Source: Streptomyces sp. NRRL F-2664 (GTDB taxonomy: Bacteria > Actinomycetota > Actinomycetes > Streptomycetales > Streptomycetaceae). From it: a DNA stretch of 14,769 bases. The position numbers and the translations under genes were made by a program. The notes under the pieces are model-generated. The model worked only from the letters and a program-made list of their open reading frames with translations, was not told the origin of the DNA and did no database searches. The DNA is taken from positions 1 through 14,769 of the forward strand of contig NZ_JOFX01000067.1 in the NCBI RefSeq assembly GCF_000719345.1, given 5' to 3'. This document shows, piece after piece, positions 1-14,769 of this stretch (positions are counted from its first letter, which is position 1; each line of letters begins with the position of its first letter).

Positions 1-1081
1 CGGTGGGGACTTGGGGGTTGGGGTCGGTCGCGGTGACGGTGAAGGTGTAGGTGCCCGGCTGGGTGGGGGTTCCGCTCAGGGTGCCGTCTGCGGCCAGGGA
101 CACTCCAGACGGCAGGGTGCCGTCAGTGACCGCAAAGGCTGCTTCCCCGGTCCCGCCGGCGGTTTCAATCACGGCCGAGTACGGCTGGCCGACGGTGGCG
201 TCCGGCAGCGGGCTCGCGGTGGTGATCTCCAGATCCGCGACAGTGTAGGAGATCGTCACCTGCGCAGGGCCCGTCGCCGCCTCGCGGGTGCCCCCGGCGG
301 GCACGAAGTCCGAACCGCCGCCTCCACCGGCGGGGCCGAGAGCTGTAGTGTTCGCAGGGCAGGAGCCTCCGCCCCCGCCTCCGAACCAGCCGCCCCCCCC
401 CCCGCCCCCCCCGCGGGCGAAACCCGCCCTGCCGCCACCTGCTCCTCCGTCCTGGCCAGTGGGGAAGCCCGCGTCACCTCCGGCGACGGGCGTGCTGGCG
501 GTCGTCACGCCGCCACCGCCCCCGCCACCCGCGACGATCAGCCGGGGGTCGTCCGGTACGCCTGTCAGCGTGCAGCCAGCTGTCTCGGAGGAGCAGGTCC
601 GGACATCGCTGGCGCCCCCTCCCGCTCCGCCGCTGAAAATGCCGGGGCCGCCCAGGCCGCCACCAACGGCGACGTTCACCCACAGGGTGCTGCCCGCTGT
701 GACAGTGAGCGTCCCTGTGACTGTGGAGCCGGCGCCACCCGCTGAACCTGGCTGTCCGCTGCTGCCTGTTTCGCCGGTGGCGGTGATGGACAGGGATGTG
801 ATGCCGGCGGGGACGGTGAAGGGCTGGTTTGCGCCGGCGGTGAAGGTCTGGGTGATGGTGGCGGCTGTGGCGGGGGCGGCGGGGACCATGACGCCCGCGG
901 CTGCCAGGACGAGTGCGGGGGCCAGGAGCCGTGCCGCTGCCCTTCGGGCGCGCGCAGCGCGCCCGAAGGGAGCAGGCTGCCGGAGGTCCGCAGCGTTGCG
1001 GGGGAGTGCCCGGGGCTGCGTTGTGGCTGTGTCGGCTGAGGTTGCCGTGGGGAGTGGGATCACGCCCGCACGCCCCCTCAT
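1..1081 (-). CDS. Secreted glycine-rich protein with Ig-like (He_PIG-type) domain, 3' end cut by window
   Basis: This reading frame stays open from the start codon to the left window edge, so the C-terminus is missing. The first ~70 residues hold an Arg-rich stretch, then a hydrophobic signal core (LLAPALVLAAAGVMV) and an Ala-rich cleavage region (PAAPATA) near residue 73. The mature part opens with a beta-rich segment (TITQTFTAGANQPFTVPAG), then a long Gly-rich region with two Cys-containing patches. It ends in a putative Ig domain with the typical signature: LPDATVGQPYSA, then GTLPSGVSLAADGTLSGTP, then GTYTFTVTATD. Secretion and surface or wall attachment are inferred. ATG 1081 is in frame; GTG 1063 is an alternative with a better-placed purine-rich GAGGGGG upstream. 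Two G-tracts (8 and 11 nt) lie in the Gly-rich part, and the frame is continuous only with exactly these lengths. Function is unknown; the secretion and Ig-fold calls are fairly sure. Confidence 0.75.
   Translation of the reverse strand, partial: MRGRAGVIPLPTATSADTATTQPRALPRNAADLRQPAPFGRAARARRAAARLLAPALVLAAAGVMVPAAPATAATITQTFTAGANQPFTVPAGITSLSITATGETGSSGQPGSAGGAGSTVTGTLTVTAGSTLWVNVAVGGGLGGPGIFSGGAGGGASDVRTCSSETAGCTLTGVPDDPRLIVAGGGGGGGVTTASTPVAGGDAGFPTGQDGGAGGGRAGFARGGGGGGGGWFGGGGGGSCPANTTALGPAGGGGGSDFVPAGGTREAATGPAQVTISYTVADLEITTASPLPDATVGQPYSAVIETAGGTGEAAFAVTDGTLPSGVSLAADGTLSGTPTQPGTYTFTVTATDPNPQVPT
940..970. repeat. Perfect 13-bp inverted repeat (hairpin) in the 5' part of the secreted-protein gene
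   Basis: The arms CCCTTCGGGCGCG (940-952) and CGCGCCCGAAGGG (958-970) are exact reverse complements around a 5-nt loop. The element lies inside the coding sequence, just before the hydrophobic signal core. It encodes the Arg-rich FGRAARARR stretch. It could be a translational or transcriptional control hairpin, or an intrinsic-terminator-like relic. No U-tract follows on either strand. Confidence 0.6.
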
Positions 1082-2447: not shown

Positions 2448-3211
2448 CATGCGGCGCATTGGTCGACGCGGTCGATGGCGGAAAGACGGGGGCTTCCCCA
2501 GTCGGCGGTGTCACGTGTGTGGCGTGCTTTCGGACTGTAGCCATACCGCTCGGAGGCGTTCAGACTGTCGACGGATCCGTTCTTCGTCGACAAGGTCCAT
2601 GACGTCGTCGGCCTCTGCCTCGAGCCGCCTGAGCGTGCTCTGGTGCTGTGTGTGGATGAGAAGTCGCAGATCCAGCCCCTGGACCGGTCCCAGCCGGTCC
2701 TGCCGATGGTGCCCGGGGTGCCGGAGCGGGCCCCCCGCGGCTACGTCCGGGCCGGCACCCCCACCCTGTTCGCCGCGTTCGACGCCGCCTTCGGCCATGT
2801 CATCGGATCCCTCCACCGCCGCCACCGCGCGGCGGGGTTCAAGAAGTTCCTCACGAAGCTCGACAAAGAGAGCCCCGCCGGACTTGAGGTCCATCCCGTC
2901 TGCGGCAACTACGCGACCCACAAGACCGCAGACATCAAGAAACGGCTCCTGGCCCGCCCTCGGCTCCACATGCACTTCACACCCACAGGATCCTCCCGGC
3001 TGAACCTCGTCGAGCGATGGTTCGCGGAGCTGGCGAACAAACAGATACGGCGCGGAGTCCACAAATCCGTGCCAGCACCCGAGGGAGACATCCGCACCTG
3101 GATCGCCACCCGGAACCAGGACCCCAAGCCATTCGTATGGACGAAGACAGCCGACCAGATCCTCGAGCCCCCGCCTCATACTGCCGACGAATTACTGACT
3201 CAGGACACTAG
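2448..3211 (+). pseudogene. IS630-family transposase, 5'-truncated and mutated
   Basis: One frame encodes a helix-turn-helix tail (HWSTRSMAERRGLPQSAVSR, VWRAFGL), an amber TAG at 2538-2540, then most of the DDE catalytic domain. The order is CVDEKSQIQ (first Asp), SLHRRHR, VCGNYATHK, FTPTGSSRLN, LVERWF (Glu), then WTKTADQILE. Four defects are visible. The N-terminus is missing at the junction with the IS5 remnant. TAG replaces what is normally Lys/Arg in GLKPHRSE. The second catalytic Asp (VCDNYATH in the family) is Gly, codon 2904-2906. A one-base shift near 3170 moves the real ending (SYCRRITDSGH, stop 3209-3211) into another frame. The element is dead. Its last codon is one base from the stop codon of the converging DUF5988 gene. 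Confidence 0.85.
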
Positions 3212-3212
3212 T

Positions 3213-3419
3213 TCACTCGGCGATCTTGGTCCGGTAGATCCATTGGTACACGCGGCATCCTGATGCTTTCGAGGCGGCCACGTCAAATTCATAATGCTCA
3301 TAACCATTGAGCCAGCGAATGGTCAGGCGAGTGGGGTCCTGACGGGTGGGAGCGGGCGGGTCCTCGGCCAGCTCGGGCGGCCCACCGGACAGGCAGAAGG
3401 GGACGGTGGCCTCGATCAT
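3213..3419 (-). CDS. DUF5988-type small protein
   Basis: This 68-residue protein begins MIEATVPFCLSGGPPELAED and ends with the family hallmark: YEHYEFD, a short variable stretch, then VYQWIYRTKIAE. Small proteins of this kind (a V-L-GGP-x-L opening, a GYEHFE middle and a V-Y-W-x-x-RTxIAE ending) are common in Streptomyces, often near secondary-metabolite genes. Their function is not established. The start is well supported by AAGGAGG five bases before the ATG. There is no signal peptide or membrane segment, so it should be cytosolic. It is the last gene of the minus-strand block and appears intact although a dead IS630 element abuts its stop codon. The gap of 204 bp to the membrane-protein gene upstream is long enough for its own promoter. 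Confidence 0.7.
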   Translation of the reverse strand: MIEATVPFCLSGGPPELAEDPPAPTRQDPTRLTIRWLNGYEHYEFDVAASKASGCRVYQWIYRTKIAE

Positions 3420-3623: not shown

Positions 3624-4358
3624 TCAACGGTTGTCGATGTATAGATCAGGCCGCAGGCGCAACAGTGCGATACCCACCGCGATCACCCAGAAGGAAAACA
3701 GCGCCCAGGGCAGCACCGATGCGAGTGTGCCGGGGGCCAGGCTCCCCTTGCCATCGAGCATTACGAAAACACCTAGGGCACAGAGTATTCCGACTCCGAC
3801 GGTGGACCACACCGCCCACCCCGGGAATATTCTGGTGCGCCGGAAGGCGAAAGCTGTGGCAAGCAAGAGCAACGCCCCATACATTTGGCCGGAAAGGTAG
3901 AGCATCCAAGACAGTTCGTAGGTGTACTTGGCGAAGGCCTCGACTGTCGGGTGGCCGGGGGTACCCGCCAGCGCGTTGAGTAGCCACACCGGGTTGGACG
4001 CCTGCATACTCACTGAGGTCGCGACGGCTGCAGGTGTGAGCATGCGGGTCACGACGGTGCGGCCACCGCAGGTCTCGAGGTAGGTAGTGAGTCCGGAGAT
4101 CAACCAGATCAGCAGCACCAGTCCGGCGGCTGCGGCGGCAACCTCGAGGCCGACAGCGACGCGGTGCTCGGCGAACCAGGCTGCAATCTGTGCACCGGTG
4201 TCACCCCAGTAAGGGTAGAGCTTGGGGAAGTGCGCCATCCCGTCCGCGCCTACGACGATCATTGTCACGAACATCAGCGGCATAGCAACAATTCCAGCCC
4301 AGCCAGATAGGCGGATTTCTCGAGCTTGTTCGGCGGACAGGGAATTCGCGGTGGGCAT
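3624..4358 (-). CDS. Multi-pass integral membrane protein, function unknown
   Basis: This 244-residue protein has about six hydrophobic segments: near residues 19-38 (GWAGIVAMPLMFVTMIVVG), 66-88 (AAAAAGLVLLIWLISGL), a weaker one near 105-125, 146-168 (LYLSGQMYGALLLLATAFAF), 176-198 and 207-232. It ends in a short basic tail (LRLRPDLYIDNR). No ATPase, transporter signature or catalytic motif is visible. The overall look is that of DUF4386-like actinomycete membrane proteins, but I am not certain of the family. AGGA about six bases before the ATG supports the start. A 253-bp gap with inverted repeats separates it from the flavoenzyme gene upstream, so it may have its own promoter. In context it could help export the product or protect against it; nothing in the sequence proves this. 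Confidence 0.7.
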   Translation of the reverse strand: MPTANSLSAEQAREIRLSGWAGIVAMPLMFVTMIVVGADGMAHFPKLYPYWGDTGAQIAAWFAEHRVAVGLEVAAAAAGLVLLIWLISGLTTYLETCGGRTVVTRMLTPAAVATSVSMQASNPVWLLNALAGTPGHPTVEAFAKYTYELSWMLYLSGQMYGALLLLATAFAFRRTRIFPGWAVWSTVGVGILCALGVFVMLDGKGSLAPGTLASVLPWALFSFWVIAVGIALLRLRPDLYIDNR

Positions 4359-4611: not shown

Positions 4612-5943
4612 TCAGACCGATTGCTTCAATACCTTCCAGAGGATAGACGGCTGGAACAATTCAGCAGGAGTAGCCGTCTTTCCTATGGTGCGAAAAAAGG
4701 TACAGGTGACACTATCGTCGTGTTCGGCGATAGCCAGCAGCCGCTCCAGGTAGCGAGACAGGATTTGGAAGTGAAGAGGTTGTTTCCGATCCGAGTCCTG
4801 TAGGGCGGTGTCGATGGCAGCAGAAAACATCCATGGTATTCTCAACGTATGTGCGGCGCCTCGATAGAAGCGATGAGGAAGTCGCCTCGTCCCTTGTGAC
4901 AGGCATTTTTTTAAAACTAGTGCCTGCTCTGCGGAATGCGTGATACCGCCACCATGGAGAGGGTTTATCGAGCACAGCGAATCGCCCATTATTACAAGCC
5001 GATCCGGGACCTTCTCAAGCCGTTCGTAATGCTGCCATACATTGCTCGGAAAGTTATAGGACATGAATTCATCCAGCGGCTTCCCCTTATGTCGGACCAG
5101 TTCAAGAATATCCGATGGAACGATGCCGGACGCATATTTCCAGAATTGATCTGCATTGGCGGGGGGGCGCCAGGGGCCGTATCCCTGGAGGGAGAATACC
5201 CAGGAGCCGTGCTCTTGCTGTAACAAGGACCAGCCGCGCGGGTTCGTGGGCGACGGACTGGACAAGCAGGCTTTGTCGGCCCCGAGCGCGCCTTCCTGCA
5301 GTCTGAAGTGCCTACTGACGTAGGAGAGGTTTAGTGGAAGCCTCTCTTCCGGCGGGCGAGAGTATCCAATTTCTTCCAACCATGCAGCAGCGAGACGGGT
5401 GCGTCCCGGTGCGCACACTACGAAATCAGCCGGCAGGAGCCACTCCCGTTTTTCGTAATTCGAAGCGACTCGCACACCACTGACGCGATCACCTGCTGAA
5501 ATAGTTTGAAATCCCAACGCTTTGCACTCCGGCAGAAACTCTATACCAGGTTTCCGGCACATGAATCGCCGCACCGCGGCTTCGATAAATGGGCGAGTCG
5601 CCAGTACCGCTTTAGCAACTCCGGGAGGCCTGCTTAAGGTATGCCCGAGATACGAGACGCGAAAGTTCGACATCGCATCCGCCTCGACAGCACCTAATTC
5701 AACTAATTCCTGACAGAAGCCGGGCATGAGTTCTTCGAATATTTCGATTCCGCGTGTCAGTAGACCGTGCGGATGTGAGCCTTGCGGCACACCGCGCCGC
5801 GGCTGGGACGGAGCACCAACAGGATGGAGCTCATCCTTCTCTACAACCGTCACTCGGCTGAAATGCTCGGCGAGAACGCCTGCGGCAAACAAGCCCGCGA
5901 ACCCGCAACCGATCACTACTGCGTGTTCATCAGCTTTCACCAT
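4612..5943 (-). CDS. FAD-dependent oxidoreductase (PHBH fold, LasC-like epoxidase/hydroxylase)
   Basis: The protein opens with a Rossmann FAD-binding motif (AVVIGCGFAGLFAAGVLAEH), an acidic strand end (VTVVEKDEL) and the family's RRGVPQGSHPHGLLTRG segment. Later it has the flavin-ribityl motif GDSLCSINPLHGGGITH, equivalent to GDA-C-FNP-x-GQGM of LasC-type epoxidases and related monooxygenases. It is cytosolic and should use FAD, NAD(P)H and O2 to hydroxylate or epoxidise a chain product. The longest frame starts at 5967, but GGAG lies six bases before the ATG at 5943, which I prefer (443 residues). Four leucines of the 451-codon frame were checked; L88, L91 and L111 are TTA, suggesting control by the bldA tRNA. 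The gene is more AT-rich than the synthase genes, hinting at a separate origin. It follows the thioesterase by ~100 bp, with a palindrome between. The substrate is unknown. Confidence 0.8.
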   Translation of the reverse strand: MVKADEHAVVIGCGFAGLFAAGVLAEHFSRVTVVEKDELHPVGAPSQPRRGVPQGSHPHGLLTRGIEIFEELMPGFCQELVELGAVEADAMSNFRVSYLGHTLSRPPGVAKAVLATRPFIEAAVRRFMCRKPGIEFLPECKALGFQTISAGDRVSGVRVASNYEKREWLLPADFVVCAPGRTRLAAAWLEEIGYSRPPEERLPLNLSYVSRHFRLQEGALGADKACLSSPSPTNPRGWSLLQQEHGSWVFSLQGYGPWRPPANADQFWKYASGIVPSDILELVRHKGKPLDEFMSYNFPSNVWQHYERLEKVPDRLVIMGDSLCSINPLHGGGITHSAEQALVLKKCLSQGTRRLPHRFYRGAAHTLRIPWMFSAAIDTALQDSDRKQPLHFQILSRYLERLLAIAEHDDSVTCTFFRTIGKTATPAELFQPSILWKVLKQSV

Positions 5944-6000
5944 CGGATGCTCCATTACCTGCGACATTTAACAATCGCAACCTGTGGCATACCATCTGCT

Positions 6001-6045: not shown

Positions 6046-6669
6046 TCACGGTTTTACGCCTATGCCGTTGGCTTCTTTGTGTGGATCGCTGCTGTTTGTG
6101 CTCCAGGCTCGGGTGAGATCGGCGCCGAGGAGTTTGATGCCGTCGACGCATTCTCGGGGGAGCGGGGCGGGTATGAGTGTGGCCCCGGGTTCTGGGAGCC
6201 CGTTTTCCCATACCGCGTTTCCCCATGTTTGCTTGGCTCGGGCGACCAGTTCATCGCCGCGGTCGGCGCGTCGGTAAATGTGGATATTGGCTTGCAGGAA
6301 GTAAAGCCGAACTCCGGAGACGAACATCTTCAGGACAACGTGGTCGTTGGCGTAGAGTTCACCCAAGTATTCACAAGAGACCTCGACGGTCGGCATGACC
6401 ACGATGCCGTGCGCGGCATCTCGCATGTACTGGGGGAATAGTTCGAATCCGCATTGTTCGCGACATGCGCCCATCCATTCGAAGTACTGGTTGTAGTAGA
6501 CGAATCCGGCGGCGCTGGTTTCGCCGTATGTGACGATGTGTTCCCACTCGTAATAGGGCAACCCGTTGGTGTCGGGTGCTGGCGGGCAGACTCTGGCATT
6601 GAATCGTTGGTGTCGTTGTGGCCGGGGCGCGGTATCCGGCTCCGCTAGTGCCGCAATGTCCTGTGTCAT
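6046..6669 (-). CDS. Hotdog-fold thioesterase, enediyne E10/CalE7-like
   Basis: This 207-residue protein has a ~35-residue Pro-rich N-terminal extension and then a single 4HBT-type hotdog domain. The domain contains EHIVTYGETSAAG (residues 43-55), FVYYNQYFEWMGACRE (56-71) and a central strand, VVMPTVEVSCEYLGEL. Enediyne thioesterases such as CalE7, SgcE10 and DynE7 share the ET-x-x-x-G-x-V-Y-x-x-x-Y-x-x-W-x-G-x-C-R-E pattern. These release a polyene from the ACP of the iterative PKS. From memory of CalE7, Tyr29 and Arg37 match Tyr62 and Arg70 here, while the Asn19 position is Ser52. The start is supported by AGGGGA seven bases before the ATG. It begins 11 bp after the synthase stop, a strong sign of co-expression and of acting on that synthase's chain. 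It could also be an editing or general acyl-ACP thioesterase. Confidence 0.8.
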   Translation of the reverse strand: MTQDIAALAEPDTAPRPQRHQRFNARVCPPAPDTNGLPYYEWEHIVTYGETSAAGFVYYNQYFEWMGACREQCGFELFPQYMRDAAHGIVVMPTVEVSCEYLGELYANDHVVLKMFVSGVRLYFLQANIHIYRRADRGDELVARAKQTWGNAVWENGLPEPGATLIPAPLPRECVDGIKLLGADLTRAWSTNSSDPHKEANGIGVKP

Positions 6670-6680
6670 TCTCCGGTCCC

Positions 6681-9600
6681 CTATCTCCCTGTCGCGCCGC
6701 CGGCAGTATTAGATTCTCGCGGGTTCGGATTGCCTGCTGTCGTGGCTGGGTTATGTTTGGTCCATTCGCGGTACGGGATGTCAGATGGTATGAGGTCTAT
6801 CGTGTGGAAGGTCAGTCCGGTGACGGTCAATAGGGTGCGTCCGCTGGCGGTCGTCGCGGTGGCGTGTCGTTGGGTGTGCTTGTAGGACAAATTGATGCCT
6901 TCCGGGTATCGCCCGGTAAGGGTGACATCCGTGTCGGTGGTGTAGAGGTCGATACGTTCGACGGCGACGGGTACTCCCATGGTTTGTCGGCCGTCGGGTT
7001 GTGGCGGATAGCCGAACAGTCGCATCGTGGAGTCGAGTAGCAGCGCGGGTATCGGCAGGTGCGCGAACACGCTGTGTGGTTCCGGGTGCGGGCGGCAGCG
7101 TGCGGCCGCACCTGTCGCGCCGCTCGCCACGGCGTGCAGGGTGCGCCACACACCGGATAGTTGAACGGACACGTCGGGTCGGACAGCTGGGTCGTCCTGC
7201 AATTCGGTCAGATCGGCTGCGGCGTTTGACACCGGCAGTAGAGGCGATGTTGGTGGGTGTCCGAGCCGGACTTCGACTCGGCAGTGCAGCCGGTCTGCGG
7301 CCAGGATTCGGCCGTCTCGTGCCTGCACGTCGGAGCGTAGTTCCACTCGTACGATCTGTGGTGCGACGGTTTCAGCGTTGATGCGACATCCTGCGGCCCG
7401 CACATCGGTGTAGAGCGGCGCCTGGATGTGCAGGTCGGTGAAGGTGGTGATGGGGAGGCCGGGATGTAGTTGCTGGGCCGCGTCGGCGGCGAGTGCCAGC
7501 ATCATTACGGCGGGCATAACTGGCCTATGGTCGATCAGGTGTTCGGCCAGGTAGGCGTCACGGACCGGGTCAGGGCGCCATGTCCATGTCCCAGTAGCGT
7601 TGTTTTTGATGTCGGGATCCCCGAGTAACGGGGCCGCCGGATCCTGATGGTGCGTCCAGGAGTGGGCGATGCCGTAGAACGGTACCCGGTCCAGCGGGCG
7701 TGGTACGGCGAGTTCGGCCAGCATCAGGTCGGTGCCGACGCTGTTGCTGATGCCGGTCAGACCGTAGTTGCGGCTCAGAGGAGCGGCGATGCTGGAGACC
7801 ATTCCGGTTTCGGTCCACAGCCCCCAGGCGCTGGTGAACTCGGCGCCGTCTGCGTATCGTGCTGCGGCGCAAAGATATTCGTTGGCTGCGACGTAATCGG
7901 TGTCGCCGGCGCAGCCGAGTAGCGCGTTGGCGGAGCCGAAGTTGCACCACAGGACGGGGGCGGGGTCGGCGAATGCTTCTTTCAGATGGTGGTAGCCGGC
8001 TACTTTGATGTCACGGATCTCCCGGAAGTCCGCGAGGGATTTGTCGGCGATCGCGTTGGAGCGTATGCGGCCGGCACCGTGAATGAGCATGTCGATGCGA
8101 CTCTCGCGCTCCGAAATGATTTTGGCTGCGTGCATCACCTGTTTGCGCTCGCGGATATCGCAGACCAAATAGTGGACGTTATCCCGGCCGCACAACTGCT
8201 CGAGTCGGCGCAGGGTGCGGTGGATTTCGCGGCCGTGGAGCAGCGAGTCGAACCTCTTGGTTAGAGCTGCGACAGTGGCGGAGGGGTCCAGGCTCCGTTC
8301 GCGGGTCAGGAATTCAGCTCTCGCGACCGCTATTTCGTGATCTGGTGTGTCTCGCAGCTCATCGGGGGTGGCATCGGCGGGTGTGGTGCCCAGCAGCCAC
8401 AGCGTAGGGTGTACTCGTTCGGCGATCGCCGTCACCACTGCCGCGGTCACTCCGCGGGCACCGCCGCTGGCCACTATGACAGGACGGTCCGTCCACGGCA
8501 GCGGGCCTGCCCTGCGTTCCGCAGGAAGGGGTGTGGTGCACACCTGTTCGACGTAGCGCAGGCCGAGACGGTAATAGACGATGGTGCGGTCGCGCATCGC
8601 TGCTGTTTCGTCGCCGAGCTGGTCGAGCCCGGCGGTGAGGGTCCCGTCGCTAATCACCGCGTAGACCGGGTGAGGGAGTTCGTGGGCGAGGCTGCGCAGG
8701 AAGCCTGTGAACAGTGTCATGTGCGGGTGAACAGTATGGCGGCGCAACGGGTCCAGCAGCAGTGCCGTTACCGAGCAGTCGGCCGCGGAATCAGCAGCGA
8801 GAAGCTGCGCCGCAGAGAGCGCGCACTCCTGCAAGGCCAGCAGCGCAGCCGAGGGCGGGGCGGGCCAGGCGGCCGGCGGGGTGCGGGCCGAGGCCACGAT
8901 CACCACATGCTCGACACCATGGTGCAGGGCTCTCGCAGCCTCGTTGACGATCTGCGGGTCGGAGCCGTCAGCGACCGTAACGTGGCCGCGTACAGTAGCT
9001 GTCGGATCCGTGCACACCACTCGGCATCCGGTGTGTATCCATGGTTGCAGCTGCCGCGCGAGGTCCTCACTGTGGGTCAGTACCAACGTCGCGGGCCCGA
9101 TCACAGGTCGGCGCTGGCCATTGCACTGGGCATCGGCGCGGCGCAACACCATCACCGATCGATCCGGCGCCGGCTCCCGACTAGCGGTGGGTTCATCGAG
9201 GCGACCAAGGTTGTCCTCCGGAAGTACCGGTGTTTCGAGTCTCTCCGCATTCATAGAACTGCAGGTGGGGGTCTCTGTGTCAATATCGATTACCGGTCGT
9301 GACCGGTCGTCGGCGGATGCGGGGGCGAGCCCATTCGAGACAGCTGCCGGGAGAATCTTCTGTGCAGACGGTGGGGGTGCCGGAATCGGTTGGATCTGTA
9401 CCCGGGGTGCCGGATCTTGGTTGCATATCACGACCGGGCTTACCGACGCTGTGTGCAGTGCGCGGAGCACCGCGAGCGCACCGTCGGCGCCGAGGTAGCT
9501 GCGCCCAGCGCCCGGCATGCCGGTGCGGTGGTGACCAGTGTGTGTGGCGTCGGTGCTGACCAGCGCGTGTATCGGCCAGCCGTGACGTTGGGCGGTCGAG

Positions 9601-12600
9601 CGGCGGGCCAGGACCAGGAGTACGGCTCCCTCGGCGAGTTCGGTGTCGGGTATACCGCTCAGTTCGGTCATCAGTGCGGTGCTGTTGCCGTTGAGGCCGA
9701 TCACCAGTGCCAGGTCCAGTTCCCCCGAGGTCAGGTAGCGTTCGGCGGTATGCAGCGCGCCCTGGGTCGAGGAGCGGCCGCAGTCGATGTTCATCGCCAG
9801 GCCGTGCAATCGGTACCGGTTCACCACCATCGAGGAGATGATGTTGGTGAGCTGGCCGGTCATGCTGCGGTCATTGGCGGCGGGGAGTCGCTGTTCCAGG
9901 GTGGTGAGCGCAGCGTCGAGGCGCTCGATATCCTCCGTCGTGACGTCGGACGTGTCCGTGAGCGCGGCCCGCAGGTCGTCTGCCCCTGTTCGGATGGTGT
10001 AGTCGGTCATGCAGCGGGTCGGGCCGGTGTGGCCGGTGAAAACCCCGGTGCGCGCTCTCAGCCCTGCCCACATCTCGCCGTGTTCGGTCACGAAACCGTG
10101 CACGGCGGCCAGACCCATCAGGTGGGTTCGGTCGATGCTCAGTGCCGCCGCCAGTGGCATCCGCAACCGGTCGAACGGCGGCATCGGATACTGGTCACCG
10201 AACGACCGCGGTGGTGGGCTCCCCACCCCACGCAACCAATCGATGATCCCTTGCTCCGATACTGCGCCGGGGAAGTGCACGGAGGTGCCGACAAGGACCA
10301 TCGGGTCTTTCTCGTGGCGCCTGTTGGTCGCCGGCCCGGACTGCGGGGGGGTGAATCCGGAGTCGGGTGCCTGCACCAACTGGTGGGCGTTGGTGCCGCC
10401 GAGGCCGTAGGCGCAGATTCCGGCCAACCGCGGTGTCTTCGGGCGTGTCGGCCAGGGGACTGGCTCCATGGGTATGGTGACCCGCTCGGCCCGGACGTGG
10501 GGCGGCAGCGCAGTGAAGTATCGTTCGGGTGGTATCTCCTCGTGCCGCATGGCCAGGACCGCATGAATGACGTTGATTGCCCCCGATGCCCAGGCGCCGT
10601 GCCCGATCAATGGTTTGTTCGAGGTGCAGCACACGCCCCCGGGTCCGGCCGTCTCGGCTATCGTCGCGAGTTCGTCCTCGTCACCGACCCGGGTGCCGGT
10701 GCCGTGGGCGACGACCCAGTCGACCCTGTCGGCGCCGATGGTATTGATGGCGCGGGCGCGTTCGACCGCGAGCCGCTGGCCTGCGGTCGAGGTCGCGACG
10801 AGGCTGCCCTCGCCATCGGCCGAGCCGCCGAATCCTGCCAACAGTCCCAGGATTTCATCGCCGTCGGCGCGAGCGCGATCGAGGCGCTTCAATGCGACGA
10901 CCGCGGCCGCGTCGGAGAACAGCACCCCATCGGCGGCGGTGTCGAAGGCGCGGACCTGCCCCTCGGCCGCCAATCCCCCGAGTTTGGCGAACAACACCAG
11001 ATCGCGTCGGGAGCCGCTGATGGCGCCGCCGCACAACACGATGTCCCGATCTCCGGCCAGCAGGCTCTTTACTCCGAGGTCGATGGCGTACAGCGAGGAC
11101 GAACAAGCGGTATCGACCACGAGCATTTCACTGTCCTCCGGCAGCACATCCCGGCAGGCATTGCGCAGCATATGGTCGGGAAAGGCGTCTACACACCGGT
11201 CGGGGGCGTGCCGGTAGTGCGCACGCAACGCCGCGTCTCCCGCTGGCCCCCGCAGTGCAGCCGGTCGTGGCAGTGCCGTTGCTGTGGCCAGCAGGACGCT
11301 GTCCTCGAGCGCCAGCCCGCCTGGCTGGGTGCCGACGTAGGCGCCGAACCGATCGCGGGACCGGACACAGACAGTGTCCATCGCCTGGAAGAAGCTGTGG
11401 CGCAGCATCAACGTGGTCAGGTCGGCGCGATCCCAACGGCCCCTTGATTGCTCGGCGGCGAGGCGGGGGTGGGGTGTGAAGTCGTGCAGGAAGCCCGCAA
11501 TTCGGACGTAGGTCTTATCCGGTGCCGATCGATCGTGGTCAAACCAGTTTGCCATGTCGAAATGTTGGGGTTCGCGCAGGGTGTTCGTCCTTGCGAACAG
11601 CACCTTCCAGAAGTCTTGTGGACTGTTGACTCCAGGCGCGACCATACCCATACCCACAATCGCGACGGCGCCCGAACCAGGTAGCGCGCCGGTTGTGTCC
11701 ACATAGTCGTGCCCCAGGCGACGATCCGGGGGCCGGTGTCCAGGCAGTCTGGTGGGTTCGGCTGCGGCGGTGAGGGCGTCGAGGATCTGTGTGGTGTTGC
11801 GAGCGCCGGGTGGTGCGCCGGCCGCGGTGGCATCGGCGGGCAGGGAACTGCGGGTGCATTCGGTCAATACCCGTCGGACCCCGACCTCGATAAAGGTGCG
11901 CGCACCGACGTCGGTATACAGGGTCCGCACCGCGGCCAGATAATGCACCGGATCGGTCAACTGCCGGTCGAGGATACGGCGCGCGTCCGCGGATCCGGAC
12001 ACGAACCGCCGCAGAATCGGTGAATACACCCGGGCCGTGGGAGCACCGACCTGGTAGGAAGCCGTCCTCTCCGCCACACGCTGAGCCGCTGGACTCAGCA
12101 GCGGGTTGTGATGGGGGCTGTCCACCACGACGCGGGCGGTATGCACGCCCGCGGCCGCGGCGACTGCCTCGAGTCTCGCCAGTTCCCCGCCGGTGCCCGA
12201 GACCACTGTCTGCTCAGGGGAATTCGACACCGCCACGGTCAGCGACTCTCCGTTTGCCGCACCACAGAGGTACTCCGCTCGGCGGACGTCGGCGCGCAGG
12301 ATCACCATGCCGCCGTGTACCGGCAGCGCGGTGAGGGCGAGCTCGCGCTCACATAGCACACGGGCGGCGTCCTCAGGGGACAGTGCACCGGCCACGGTGA
12401 GGGCGGTGATTTCGCCCGTGCTGTGCCCGAGCAATACGTCGGTTTGTATCCCCGCAGCACGCAATCCTTGATACAGCAGGTACCCGGAGACGAACGGGGC
12501 AAGATGCAACAACGCGGGCGTCGCCCGGAGTGCCTCGAGCACCGGTCCGGCAGGATCGGTCAGCGGCCCCGACACCGAGCCGAACCCATAGTCGGCGGTA

Positions 12601-12728
12601 ACGCGGTCAATGACGGACATGAACGCATCCGTATGCGGCGAGCCATCCATGTCGGCCAGCACTCCCGGAGCGTACCCCCCGAGGCCGGGGAATTGGGCCA
12701 CCACCAGTTGGCCAGGACCGGGCTTCAT
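6681..12728 (-). CDS. Iterative-type polyketide/fatty-acid synthase, AT-KS-(inactive KS)-KR-DH
   Basis: The 2015-residue protein has these domains. AT lies at ~10-320 (GHSTGE, Ser103; SPHHNP, His206/207). KS lies at ~354-787, with VDTACSSSL giving Cys542, AHGTGT giving His675 and KPLIGHG giving His710, so the catalytic triad is intact. A second KS-like domain lies at ~808-1100, where CGRSST puts Arg985 at the Cys position and the second half with both His motifs is absent. A Pro/Ala linker runs to ~1190. KR lies at ~1190-1690 (SGGARGVTA at 1421; Lys1575, Ser1599, Tyr1612, Asn1616). DH lies at ~1720-1985 (EHLIDHRPVMP, His1730; LLDSTMRL, Asp1899). There is no ACP, ER or PPTase. Active KS plus dead KS and the KR motif recall PUFA synthases; the DH and thioesterase neighbour recall enediyne PKSs. 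ATG overlaps the upstream stop (ATGA), with GGTGAGG seven bases before. Leu1701 is TTA. Confidence 0.85.
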   Translation of the reverse strand: MKPGPGQLVVAQFPGLGGYAPGVLADMDGSPHTDAFMSVIDRVTADYGFGSVSGPLTDPAGPVLEALRATPALLHLAPFVSGYLLYQGLRAAGIQTDVLLGHSTGEITALTVAGALSPEDAARVLCERELALTALPVHGGMVILRADVRRAEYLCGAANGESLTVAVSNSPEQTVVSGTGGELARLEAVAAAAGVHTARVVVDSPHHNPLLSPAAQRVAERTASYQVGAPTARVYSPILRRFVSGSADARRILDRQLTDPVHYLAAVRTLYTDVGARTFIEVGVRRVLTECTRSSLPADATAAGAPPGARNTTQILDALTAAAEPTRLPGHRPPDRRLGHDYVDTTGALPGSGAVAIVGMGMVAPGVNSPQDFWKVLFARTNTLREPQHFDMANWFDHDRSAPDKTYVRIAGFLHDFTPHPRLAAEQSRGRWDRADLTTLMLRHSFFQAMDTVCVRSRDRFGAYVGTQPGGLALEDSVLLATATALPRPAALRGPAGDAALRAHYRHAPDRCVDAFPDHMLRNACRDVLPEDSEMLVVDTACSSSLYAIDLGVKSLLAGDRDIVLCGGAISGSRRDLVLFAKLGGLAAEGQVRAFDTAADGVLFSDAAAVVALKRLDRARADGDEILGLLAGFGGSADGEGSLVATSTAGQRLAVERARAINTIGADRVDWVVAHGTGTRVGDEDELATIAETAGPGGVCCTSNKPLIGHGAWASGAINVIHAVLAMRHEEIPPERYFTALPPHVRAERVTIPMEPVPWPTRPKTPRLAGICAYGLGGTNAHQLVQAPDSGFTPPQSGPATNRRHEKDPMVLVGTSVHFPGAVSEQGIIDWLRGVGSPPPRSFGDQYPMPPFDRLRMPLAAALSIDRTHLMGLAAVHGFVTEHGEMWAGLRARTGVFTGHTGPTRCMTDYTIRTGADDLRAALTDTSDVTTEDIERLDAALTTLEQRLPAANDRSMTGQLTNIISSMVVNRYRLHGLAMNIDCGRSSTQGALHTAERYLTSGELDLALVIGLNGNSTALMTELSGIPDTELAEGAVLLVLARRSTAQRHGWPIHALVSTDATHTGHHRTGMPGAGRSYLGADGALAVLRALHTASVSPVVICNQDPAPRVQIQPIPAPPPSAQKILPAAVSNGLAPASADDRSRPVIDIDTETPTCSSMNAERLETPVLPEDNLGRLDEPTASREPAPDRSVMVLRRADAQCNGQRRPVIGPATLVLTHSEDLARQLQPWIHTGCRVVCTDPTATVRGHVTVADGSDPQIVNEAARALHHGVEHVVIVASARTPPAAWPAPPSAALLALQECALSAAQLLAADSAADCSVTALLLDPLRRHTVHPHMTLFTGFLRSLAHELPHPVYAVISDGTLTAGLDQLGDETAAMRDRTIVYYRLGLRYVEQVCTTPLPAERRAGPLPWTDRPVIVASGGARGVTAAVVTAIAERVHPTLWLLGTTPADATPDELRDTPDHEIAVARAEFLTRERSLDPSATVAALTKRFDSLLHGREIHRTLRRLEQLCGRDNVHYLVCDIRERKQVMHAAKIISERESRIDMLIHGAGRIRSNAIADKSLADFREIRDIKVAGYHHLKEAFADPAPVLWCNFGSANALLGCAGDTDYVAANEYLCAAARYADGAEFTSAWGLWTETGMVSSIAAPLSRNYGLTGISNSVGTDLMLAELAVPRPLDRVPFYGIAHSWTHHQDPAAPLLGDPDIKNNATGTWTWRPDPVRDAYLAEHLIDHRPVMPAVMMLALAADAAQQLHPGLPITTFTDLHIQAPLYTDVRAAGCRINAETVAPQIVRVELRSDVQARDGRILAADRLHCRVEVRLGHPPTSPLLPVSNAAADLTELQDDPAVRPDVSVQLSGVWRTLHAVASGATGAAARCRPHPEPHSVFAHLPIPALLLDSTMRLFGYPPQPDGRQTMGVPVAVERIDLYTTDTDVTLTGRYPEGINLSYKHTQRHATATTASGRTLLTVTGLTFHTIDLIPSDIPYREWTKHNPATTAGNPNPRESNTAGGATGR

Positions 12729-14089
12729 ACCGCTACCTCACCGAAGGGCAGAGATTGCATCAACTCGGCCAGCTTGGGTACAGTGCTGTAGTCACGCATG
12801 CGCAGTCGAGCCGGTGGCGTCGGCAACTGGTATTCATCCAGCAGCCGTACCAGCAGGTCGATCTTCCTGACCGACGTGATCCCGAGGTCGGCCTCCAAGT
12901 GCGCATCATCTGTGAACACATCCTCGGGATATCCCAGGGCCTGCGCAAACACCGACCGTATCCGAGCTTCCAGCACATCCCGGCCCGGCAGCACGGGCCG
13001 CTCGCCACTGTTGACCGCCACATCCTCAGGTGCAGCTGCCACCGGCGCCTCCTGAACGATGGTCGACGTGGCGACCTCGTCAGCTTCGGACACCGACCCT
13101 CCAAACCGATGCGCTGCAGGCGAAATCGTTGGCGAGCCGGCCAGCACCGCGAGGATCTGCGCGGCGCTATGCGTCAGCGGCGGTGGTCCCAGAACGGCAG
13201 CGGTGGCCGGCAGGATTTCACGGGCCAAGTCCGTCAGCACGGGTCGCACCCCGACTTCAAGGAACTCGCGAACACCGAAGTCGTCGTAAAGGCTGCGGAT
13301 GGCACACACATAGCCCACCGGATCGGTGAGGTGACGCTCCACGATCTGGCGTGCATGCACGGCGCACGACACTGTGTGATCAAGTATCGGCGAGAAGATC
13401 CGTGCCGCCGGATCGGTGATAGGAACCGACGCGACGGCCTCGGCCAGCCGACGCCCGGCCAGTCGCAACGCCGTATTGTGGTGCGGGTAGCGGACCAACA
13501 GCCGGGTCGCCGACACACCGGCGCCGCGCGCGACCGCCTCCAGTCTCGCCAAATCCTCGTCGATACCCGACACGACGGTCTGCACGGGCGAATTCCGCAA
13601 CGACACCTGCACAGACCAGCCCCCCGCGGCGGCACACAGATGCTCCGCATGCCGGGCACCGGTCTGGAGGGCGACCAGACCACCACGCGGTCCGACATCG
13701 CTCAGCGCCACCTCACGCTCACACAGCACACGAGCCCCATCGGCGACCGACAGAGCACCCCCGGCGACGAGCGCGGTGATCTCTCCCGTGCTGTGGCCGA
13801 GCAACATATCCTCCTCGAACCCCTTGGCGCGCAAGGCTTGGTACAGCACATACGCCGACGTAAACGAGGCCAGATGCAACAATGTCGGCGTATCAGCAAG
13901 ATCCTCCAGCAGCGGGCCGGACGGGTCGGTCAGCGGCACCGATACCGGGCCCAGACCGTACTGTCCGGCAACACGATCCACGTCGGCCAGTATCGACCCC
14001 AACTGCGGTGCATTAGCCACGACATCGGCCAGGACCCCCGGCACATAGCTACCCAGCCCCGGAAATTGAACAAGAATACGGTTGCCCAC
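12725..14089 (-). CDS. Acyltransferase-acyl carrier protein didomain (AT-ACP)
   Basis: From the GTG at 14089 the product is 454 residues. An AT domain fills ~5-315: QFPGLGSYVPGVLAD, GHSTGEITAL with Ser100, YPHHNT with the expected His pair, and FLEVGVRPVL. A Pro/Ala/Val-rich linker follows, then one ACP at ~370-444. The ACP motif LEADLGITSVRKIDLL puts the phosphopantetheine Ser at 406 (codon 12872-12874). This pattern is close to the DLGIDSIKRVEIL of PUFA-type ACPs. The AT is clearly homologous to the N-terminal AT of the next protein. An upstream ATG at 14143 would add 18 residues, but GTG 14089 has AGGGGA six to eight bases before it and matches the paralogue's N-terminus. The stop overlaps the synthase start by ATGA. 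This protein very probably supplies the carrier that the synthase lacks. The AT substrate (starter or malonyl) cannot be read with confidence. Confidence 0.85.
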   Translation of the reverse strand: MGNRILVQFPGLGSYVPGVLADVVANAPQLGSILADVDRVAGQYGLGPVSVPLTDPSGPLLEDLADTPTLLHLASFTSAYVLYQALRAKGFEEDMLLGHSTGEITALVAGGALSVADGARVLCEREVALSDVGPRGGLVALQTGARHAEHLCAAAGGWSVQVSLRNSPVQTVVSGIDEDLARLEAVARGAGVSATRLLVRYPHHNTALRLAGRRLAEAVASVPITDPAARIFSPILDHTVSCAVHARQIVERHLTDPVGYVCAIRSLYDDFGVREFLEVGVRPVLTDLAREILPATAAVLGPPPLTHSAAQILAVLAGSPTISPAAHRFGGSVSEADEVATSTIVQEAPVAAAPEDVAVNSGERPVLPGRDVLEARIRSVFAQALGYPEDVFTDDAHLEADLGITSVRKIDLLVRLLDEYQLPTPPARLRMRDYSTVPKLAELMQSLPFGEVAV

Positions 14090-14115
14090 GGCGGGTCCCC
14101 TGTCACTAGCAAATA

Positions 14116-14412
14116 CTATTTTGCGATCATGCTCGCATACCACCAGCGAAGAAACTCCGCCGCAGGACCATTGCGCGCATTCGCATGTCTATTATGTCGC
14201 TCTAAAATGAAGGCGGGATAATCTGCGTAACAAATGCGGCGAGGCGCTAGCTCCCCAGGGCCGAACAACCCGCCGTAGGCAGACACTTCGTGGACCACGT
14301 TCGTGTCGACCGGTATCTGTGAGCAGTAGACCTCCCCGCTCTGCGCTTGTACAGAGTGACACCGTCGGTAACAACGGACACTGTCCACAAGGTTGTGCAC
14401 TTGTGAATGCAT
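14116..14412 (-). CDS. Hypothetical protein upstream of the AT-ACP gene
   Basis: This is a 98-codon frame ending 26 bp before the AT-ACP start, in the position of a first operon gene. The N-terminal half is Cys-rich (RCYRRCHSV and VYCSQ). The second half looks more protein-like: SAYGGLFGPGELAPRRICYA, then FILERHNRHANARNGPAAE and FLRWWYASMIAK. There is no signal peptide, membrane segment or known motif. The ribosome-binding site before ATG 14412 is poor (GAAGG about 13-14 nt away), and later GTG starts exist. Codon third positions are only weakly GC-rich. It may be a small real gene, the remnant of a larger one cut by rearrangement, or part of the operon leader. I do not recognise it. Confidence 0.35.
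   Translation of the reverse strand: MHSQVHNLVDSVRCYRRCHSVQAQSGEVYCSQIPVDTNVVHEVSAYGGLFGPGELAPRRICYADYPAFILERHNRHANARNGPAAEFLRWWYASMIAK
14386..14405. promoter_or_regulatory. Inverted repeat near the head of the biosynthetic operon
   Basis: CACAAG (14386-14391) and CTTGTG (14400-14405) flank 8 nt that include GTGCAC. A second small symmetric element, GGACA-C-TGTCC (14376-14386), lies directly next to it. Clustered dyads at the presumed start of the minus-strand operon could be a regulator site. They overlap the doubtful 98-codon frame. Confidence 0.3.
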
Positions 14413-14710: not shown

Positions 14711-14769
14711 ATGGGCCGTGGGGATCTGACGAATGCGGAGTGGGAACGGCTGGAGTCGTTCTTGCCTCG
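14711..14769 (+). CDS. IS5-family transposase, N-terminal end only (cut by window edge)
   Basis: The last 59 bases encode MGRGDLTNAEWERLESFLP, a close match to the start of many actinomycete IS5-family transposases (MGRGDLT-AEW-RLEPLLP as I recall it). This N-terminal domain binds the IS ends. The rest lies outside the window, so whether the element is intact cannot be judged. It reads away from the biosynthetic operon. Together with the IS5/IS630 remnants at 2329-3211 it means transposase sequence borders the block on both sides. Confidence 0.75.
   Translation, partial: MGRGDLTNAEWERLESFLP

Follow-up and report, generated by a model that had tools for sequence, protein, structure and literature searches.

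The 14,769-bp stretch of DNA analysed here (the window) is an entire contig of the 7.98-Mb genome of Streptomyces sp. NRRL F-2664. It encodes a small protein with acyltransferase (AT) and acyl carrier protein (ACP) domains beside a large protein with ketosynthase (KS), ketoreductase (KR) and dehydratase (DH) domains, and thus raises the question of what kind of synthase keeps its carrier apart from its catalytic chain, and of what such a pair might make. The pair belongs to a family scattered among bacteria that looks distinct from, yet related to, the synthases making polyunsaturated fatty acids (PUFA) and enediynes.

The carrier and the catalytic domains lie on separate proteins

The initial annotation had described a two-protein layout with an unusual domain order, and this is borne out by the open reading frames (ORFs) and by Pfam (Table 1). 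Pfam identified an AT, the N- and C-terminal parts of a KS, a KR and a two-part polyketide synthase (PKS) DH in the large protein, with a second KS that shows up solely through a further hit of the N-terminal KS model, and an AT plus a PP-binding domain in the small one. The stop of the AT-ACP gene overlaps the start codon of the large gene by 4 bp. The upper limit formerly given, position 14089, fits the start of the 454-aa database version of the AT-ACP protein (P0123), but it is an internal GTG and the ORF reaches 14143. The AT of this protein aligns with Escherichia coli FabD and retains the Ser, Arg and His positions; with the roles that we take these residues to have in FabD, this fits a transfer of malonyl.

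Table 1. Features of the window and the evidence for each
Feature	Position	Strand	Details and basis
AT-ACP protein	12725..14143	-	472 aa from GTG 14143; 454 aa if GTG 14089 used; Pfam
AT domain of AT-ACP protein	about 13139-14098	-	Pfam; FabD alignment
ACP domain of AT-ACP protein	about 12746-12988	-	Pfam PP-binding; ACP profile
Predicted phosphopantetheine Ser codon of AT-ACP protein	about 12872-12874	-	ACP profile
AT-KS-CLF-psiKR-KR-DH large protein (CLF, chain-length factor)	6681..12728	-	2015 aa; Pfam, alignment, ACP profile
N-terminal AT of large protein	11754..12728	-	duplicate of AT-ACP-type AT; Pfam, AT tree
Active KS	10302..11684	-	C542, H675, H710; Pfam, alignment, structure model
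Inactive second KS, CLF-like	9384..10316	-	DCGRSS replaces DTACSSS; alignment, structure model
Structural (psi) KR and catalytic KR	7629..9176	-	S1599, Y1612, N1616; Pfam, alignment, model
Double-hotdog DH	6759..7616	-	H1730, D1899; HxxxG Gly is His; Pfam, alignment, model
Enediyne-type hotdog thioesterase	6046..6669	-	207 aa; 11 bp downstream of synthase gene
Lsd18/LasC-MonCI epoxidase-type flavin monooxygenase	4612..5967	-	78 bp beyond thioesterase gene
244-aa ORF	3624..4358	-	hydrophobic by eye; Pfam none at E<=1; operon membership uncertain
DDE_3 transposase-like ORF	2643-3263	+	Pfam 8e-10; left of operon
ORF with putative Ig (He_PIG) domain	2-1081	-	Pfam; runs off contig

In an alignment of 77 large proteins, which includes that of the window and some partial sequences (e.g. 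L017_7 and L091_14), the first KS has the catalytic Cys in 76 and both His in all 77, and the second KS lacks the Cys in every one, with an Arg at this position in the window. The earlier prediction of one active and one dead KS is therefore upheld. The KS, KR and DH residues tested are all present in the window except for the glycine of the DH motif.

The KS pair (781 aa), modelled with AlphaFold (pLDDT 94.3), has as its best match in the PDB the KS-chain-length factor 6riw of PfaC (E 7e-47, TM 0.77, 909 columns), followed at a distance by the next match (E 2.9e-35, TM 0.48). Because of this match and of its missing Cys, the dead KS of the initial annotation is best read as a predicted CLF. 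The VIA-align list is largely confined to the first KS and plays no part in this reading of the second. The model of the remaining chain (pLDDT 87.5) contains a structural KR, a catalytic KR and a double-hotdog DH, and in structure searches it matches PKS ketoreductases and the CurF dehydratase.

When the 77 large proteins were scanned with a profile built from the family's own ACPs, not one gave a match at an independent E-value (i-E) below 0.05, in agreement with the former claim that the large protein lacks an ACP, and we reject a carrier hidden in this chain. In the controls, the same profile recovered at i-E<1e-3 all 59 AT-ACP proteins and 21 of 25 reference iterative PKSs; its sensitivity to highly divergent carriers is limited, with three of the seven enediyne references passing. 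As a separate observation, most of the more distant AT-ACP proteins have Asp just before the carrier Ser, and those of the core and of Streptomyces have Ala, Thr or Ser there; the window has GITS around this Ser, and recognition by phosphopantetheinyl transferases (PPTases) may differ.

The ketosynthases form a clade of their own

In a quick KS tree of 128 rows, all 77 family KSs lay on one side of a branch with an SH-aLRT of 99, set apart from the enediyne, PfaA, PfaC, other KS-AT-ACP-KR(-DH) and modular KSs, and a more careful tree, built from 48 of these rows, supported the 24 from the family with 100/100. These results agree with the separate family that had been suggested, and within the references used the family KSs fall in no characterised clade. 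The group names were assigned within this analysis. The enediyne references are PKSs from seven of the twelve Streptomyces loci matched by the window thioesterase (see below), among them L182 in NZ_CP108680.1, where the PKS lies beside genes for DUF1702, CRTAC1 and an 'enediyne biosynthesis protein'; the PUFA references derive from five of the nine Streptomyces genomes above the TIGR02813 cut-off. Named hgl, RerA and type II polyene KSs were outside the coverage of the tree. One row labelled modular (L183_6, from a thioesterase-matched locus) fell among the enediyne KSs, one labelled FabF (L149_5) grouped with the modular KSs, and three rows were dropped, either for having no match (L150_2) or for scoring under 200 bits (L149_4 and L154_2).

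The domain architecture likewise distinguishes the pair from known synthases. Enediyne PKSs, for which we take CalE8, SgcE and DynE8 as examples, have the order KS-AT-ACP-KR-DH-PPTase in one chain, and their clusters carry E3-E5. The window pair shares with them the iterative KR-DH logic of polyene synthesis, a polyene thioesterase of the same family, and a monooxygenase with kin in enediyne clusters, but enediyne PKSs are single chains with an internal ACP and no match to a second KS, and their KSs form another clade. With PUFA synthases the pair has in common the fold of the KS-CLF didomain, as in 6riw. However, the window has one ACP in place of the tandem ACPs of a KS-MAT-ACPn-KR chain (MAT, malonyl acyltransferase), its KR and DH are on the KS-CLF chain, and its KS falls outside the PfaA and PfaC clades; according to PMC3098273, PfaA has tandem ACPs and PfaC a pair of DHs. 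We thus rejected a PUFA synthase as a candidate, given the KS clade and the single ACP. The same text, by Shulse and Allen (2011), describes secondary lipid synthases of types A-T, which resemble the pair in being iterative fatty acid synthase/PKS systems of varied domain orders; none of those in the text compared combines an AT-ACP protein with KS-CLF-KR-DH, the orders drawn in the figures lying outside this comparison (PMC3098273). Neither is the layout that of the highly reducing type II PKSs, in which KS, CLF, KR, DH and ACP are separate proteins.

The initial annotation had seen in the layout a mixture of enediyne and PUFA traits. This stands as regards the PfaC-like fold of the KS-CLF pair and the enediyne-like thioesterase, but not in the sense originally given. 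We found no description of an AT-ACP protein with a KS-CLF-KR-DH partner in open-licence PMC papers, with subscription literature and cluster databases outside the search, so the layout may have been described before.

The gene pair is shared by diverse bacteria

The large protein has homologues in Nocardia, Actinocrispum, mycobacteria, Streptomyces, Kitasatospora, Amycolatopsis, Burkholderia and Paraburkholderia. For 24 of the 34 closest ones (P0003-P0036) the longest contig has exactly the same length as that of an AT-ACP homologue, which suggests a linkage of the two genes. At the level of DNA, 17 of 21 distinct loci, the window among them, have an AT-ACP gene immediately next to that of the large protein. 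The other four comprise two at contig ends (L014 and L143), L091 and the locus of Hyalangium (L019). The script used to call neighbouring genes, a simple one based on codon positions, overlooked at least the thioesterase gene of Actinocrispum. The window has all the features of the family, with its KS in the clade, a second KS devoid of Cys, a large chain lacking an ACP and an AT-ACP partner.

The proposal of a separate family is consequently supported by the KS clade, the missing carrier and the AT-ACP partner, but not by the AT-first order, because only 11 of the 77 large proteins start with an AT. The remaining fronts are similar to short-chain dehydrogenases/reductases (SDRs) in 36 cases and neither SDR nor AT in 30, as counted on ungapped sequences, with an SDR front defined as a match to the SDR of one relative (P0041). 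This SDR itself scores best as a FabL enoyl reductase or as FabG, yet under the curated cut-offs. Among the 16 members of the core clade, 14 start with the KS; the two exceptions, the window and Nocardia suismassiliense, bear an AT front. In the AT tree, these two front ATs branch among those of the core AT-ACP proteins (98/95). As far as the sequences go, the front AT of the window is a late duplicate descended from the AT of its partner; for the core clade, one fusion with losses and two fusions fit alike. We guess that this fused AT might be a spare copy or one that loads the starter.

The nine other AT-front proteins make up a sister clade whose sequences come from metagenomes and myxobacteria, and their ATs group elsewhere in the AT tree. 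Their N-terminus has a weak match to hotdog thioesterases in four of nine (i-E<1e-3). P0091, which is outside the tree, also shows an N-terminal hotdog match at i-E<1e-3, and P0055 reaches only 0.02; Pfam 4HBT_2 was above the cut-off in P0091 alone of the four proteins scanned. The AT tree and the front counts led us to reject the AT-first order as a hallmark of the family.

A thioesterase and a flavin monooxygenase follow the synthase

Two genes downstream of the synthase on the same strand, both absent from the initial annotation, encode a thioesterase and a flavin monooxygenase and offer clues to what the pair does. In comparisons with the PDB, the former matches 5vpj (5e-19) and 9ccr (4e-18), both named only 'Thioesterase', and next CALE7 (1.8e-14), the 'ACP-polyene thioesterase' 4i4j (6e-14) and DYNE7 (1.6e-9), the last three of which we take to be enediyne thioesterases. 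A profile made with three relatives retrieves the same set at 1e-37 to 2e-28, with a DHNA-CoA hydrolase next at 1.6e-11. By sequence, the product belongs to the enediyne-type ACP-polyene thioesterase family. A protein search with the window thioesterase returned itself as its sole match. As a query in Streptomyces, it matched 12 of 150 genomes, including the source, and in the loci opened its neighbour is often a PKS. A gene of this kind also comes right after that of the synthase in Mycobacterium sp. D16Q13, Actinocrispum and Streptomyces sp. BHT-5-2.

Separately, Actinocrispum wychmicini (L009:19557-25415) encodes, some 3.5 kb beyond its first pair, another KS-CLF-KR-DH protein that has diverged; an enediyne-type thioesterase is fused to it on the C-terminal side, followed by EF-hand motifs.

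The flavin monooxygenase matches nine PDB sequences at E<1e-5, all of them Lsd18/LasC or MonCI. Lsd18 acts on a modular polyether polyketide. MonCI likewise acts on modular polyether polyketides and is thought to form three epoxides on a polyene intermediate (PMC10560226). The likeness of the window enzyme to both is one of family-level homology and does not imply their substrate. Its place is taken by P450s in Actinocrispum and Mycobacterium, which are 56-61% identical to each other; tailoring therefore varies between members.

Both downstream genes bear on whether the pair is a rearranged enediyne synthase that makes a polyene precursor, with the remaining cassette elsewhere. The type of thioesterase would agree with this, as would the company of monooxygenase homologues on plasmids: among the best 60 of 143 records matching the monooxygenase, 31 also match the enediyne gene E5, 30 of them within 60 kb, and E5 matches 50 of 72,556 plasmid records overall. 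Many of these plasmids are near-identical, so the independent cases are fewer, and one that bears the monooxygenase is the C-1027 plasmid. However, the family KSs lie outside the enediyne clade, each group with 100/100, and E5, the only one searched among E3-E5, gave no hit at E<=0.001 for the source genome or for Mycobacterium D16Q13, a search in which two control genomes (G041 and G006) were matched. Actinocrispum and Saccharothrix do have E5, though not on the contig that bears the synthase pair, taking contig numbers as following record numbers. Given the KS clade and the lack of an E5 match in the source genome, we rejected an enediyne synthase as a candidate, and we regard its rearranged form as highly improbable.

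Proposed function

With some reserve, we favour the pair as an iterative type I synthase of polyenes whose detached carrier acts in trans, with release by the thioesterase and subsequent epoxidation. The AT-ACP protein would load malonyl onto its own ACP, and the KS of the large protein, with the inactive second KS as CLF, would extend the chain on this carrier in trans. The KR and DH would then convert each beta-ketone to a double bond. Pfam identified no enoyl reductase, of the PfaD type or otherwise, among the 14 window ORFs scanned; with none seen in the operon, the expected product is a conjugated polyene. By analogy, the enediyne-type thioesterase would release it as a polyene acid, a polyenone or a polyene, and the flavin monooxygenase might epoxidise one or more of its double bonds.

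We propose the in-trans mechanism on the model of RerA/RerB of Rhodococcus erythropolis PR4, which make polyenes with 6-9 double bonds and bear chains of up to C22 on the ACP (PMC11563203). This system has in common with the window pair the iterative KS, AT, ACP, KR and DH and the presence of a thioesterase on a second protein; as proposed for the pair, a discrete ACP can serve in trans, an ACP-inactivated form of RerA being able to load one (PMC11563203). The RerB thioesterase releases the polyenes (PMC11563203), and we liken it to that of the window by function. In contrast, RerA is a single KS-AT-ACP-ACP-KR-DH chain with no CLF reported, and the PPTase is on RerB (PMC11563203).

Several observations weigh against this polyene route. 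No family member with a known product was found. The glycine of the DH HxxxG motif is His in the window and is replaced in 10 of the 16 core members, and dehydration could be altered. An enoyl reductase might be supplied in trans from another part of the genome, and the SDR-like front of 36 of the 77 large proteins indicates that some relatives may reduce further. At positions that are Asn in the matched enediyne chains, the window thioesterase carries Ser and Phe; moreover, 9 of the 15 records searched have no thioesterase match, and in three of the six that do it is on a different contig from the synthase. The flavin monooxygenase family is broad, with 143 plasmid records showing 29-37% identity in the 60 listed. 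Finally, the contig stops at position 14769, and the cluster may be incomplete.

A trans enoyl reductase would turn the pair into a synthase of fatty acids or secondary lipids, whose product would be a saturated or partly unsaturated long-chain acid. Such a role is suggested by the PfaC-like fold of the KS-CLF pair, by the SDR-like N-termini with their FabL/FabG-like but sub-threshold example, and by the fatty acid desaturase gene that adjoins the synthase in Hyalangium. Nevertheless, the 14 window ORFs yielded no enoyl reductase by Pfam, the large protein of the window has no SDR, and its thioesterase is in the enediyne set, whose members presumably release polyenes in the systems characterised. 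We therefore consider a lipid synthase unlikely.

Our preferred reading, an iterative polyene synthase, could tentatively be extended to a third lineage of iterative polyene synthesis beside those of PUFA and enediynes. In this lineage the KS-CLF-KR-DH chain would work on a carrier brought by the AT-ACP protein and an enediyne-type thioesterase would release the polyene, which in this strain a flavin epoxidase would convert to a polyepoxide or polyether-like metabolite without a modular PKS. The iterative synthases that govern how bacteria build conjugated chains would thereby gain a clade, one whose carrier is physically apart from the catalytic chain. As a naturally split system, the pair would allow chain-length control, carrier recognition and release to be studied with two separately purified proteins. 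An AT-ACP gene adjoining a KS-CLF-KR-DH gene, with a thioesterase gene in some members, could also serve as a genomic handle on uncharacterised pathways for polyenes, and perhaps polyepoxides, in Nocardia, mycobacteria, Streptomyces, Burkholderia and myxobacteria.

Genomic setting and variant loci

The locus is rare among the genomes searched. The AT-ACP query matched 2 of 150 Streptomyces genomes at E<=1e-60, counting the source, and the source was the single match among 345 genomes of the class; these are lower bounds, since the best 10 candidates were scored in each genus genome and the best four in each class genome. The operon has a G+C content of 0.56-0.67; for the left end of the contig the value is 0.705. 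Because of this low G+C and of its rarity, the locus was likely acquired from outside. Repeats in the window were limited to short, chance-like pairs.

An acquired locus could have decayed or be non-functional, as might be supposed from the same G+C deviation, from the transposase-like ORF nearby, from its occurrence in just two of the 150 genomes and from a shortened relative on a Streptomyces plasmid. We consider this very doubtful, because the four genes are open frames and the tested KS, KR and DH residues are present save for the DH glycine; with frames that are open and conserved in relatives, a chance origin is not in question. The plasmid in question, from Streptomyces sp. YIM 121038 (L089:17726-27604), carries an AT-ACP gene beside the shortened large-protein relative in a transposase-rich region and is seemingly decayed. 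The plasmid records H1 and H3 bear no annotated genes.

The genes around the synthase differ among relatives. Hyalangium versicolor (L019:7899-16936) mirrors the window with an ACP-ACP-SDR protein, a (hotdog)-AT-KS-CLF-KR-DH protein and then the fatty acid desaturase. Proteobacterial relatives have a P450-KR gene after one for SDR-KS-CLF-KR-DH, both in Burkholderia (L011:17016-21575, by Pfam) and in Paraburkholderia (L090:22490-26524, by the RefSeq name 'cytochrome P450' and a KR-like blastp match), the latter with transport and PPTase genes further along. In Streptomyces griseocarneus (L012:20379-23808), genes for a SnoaL-like cyclase, an SDR and a P450 are near the SDR-KS-CLF-KR-DH gene, and the AT-ACP protein carries two ACPs; relatives of the cyclase and SDR genes occur in the same order in S. 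apocyni (L021). Another Streptomyces genome (G105, L142:8687-16260) contains consecutive genes for a PPTase, a KS-CLF-KR-DH protein, an AT-ACP protein and a LuxR-type regulator.

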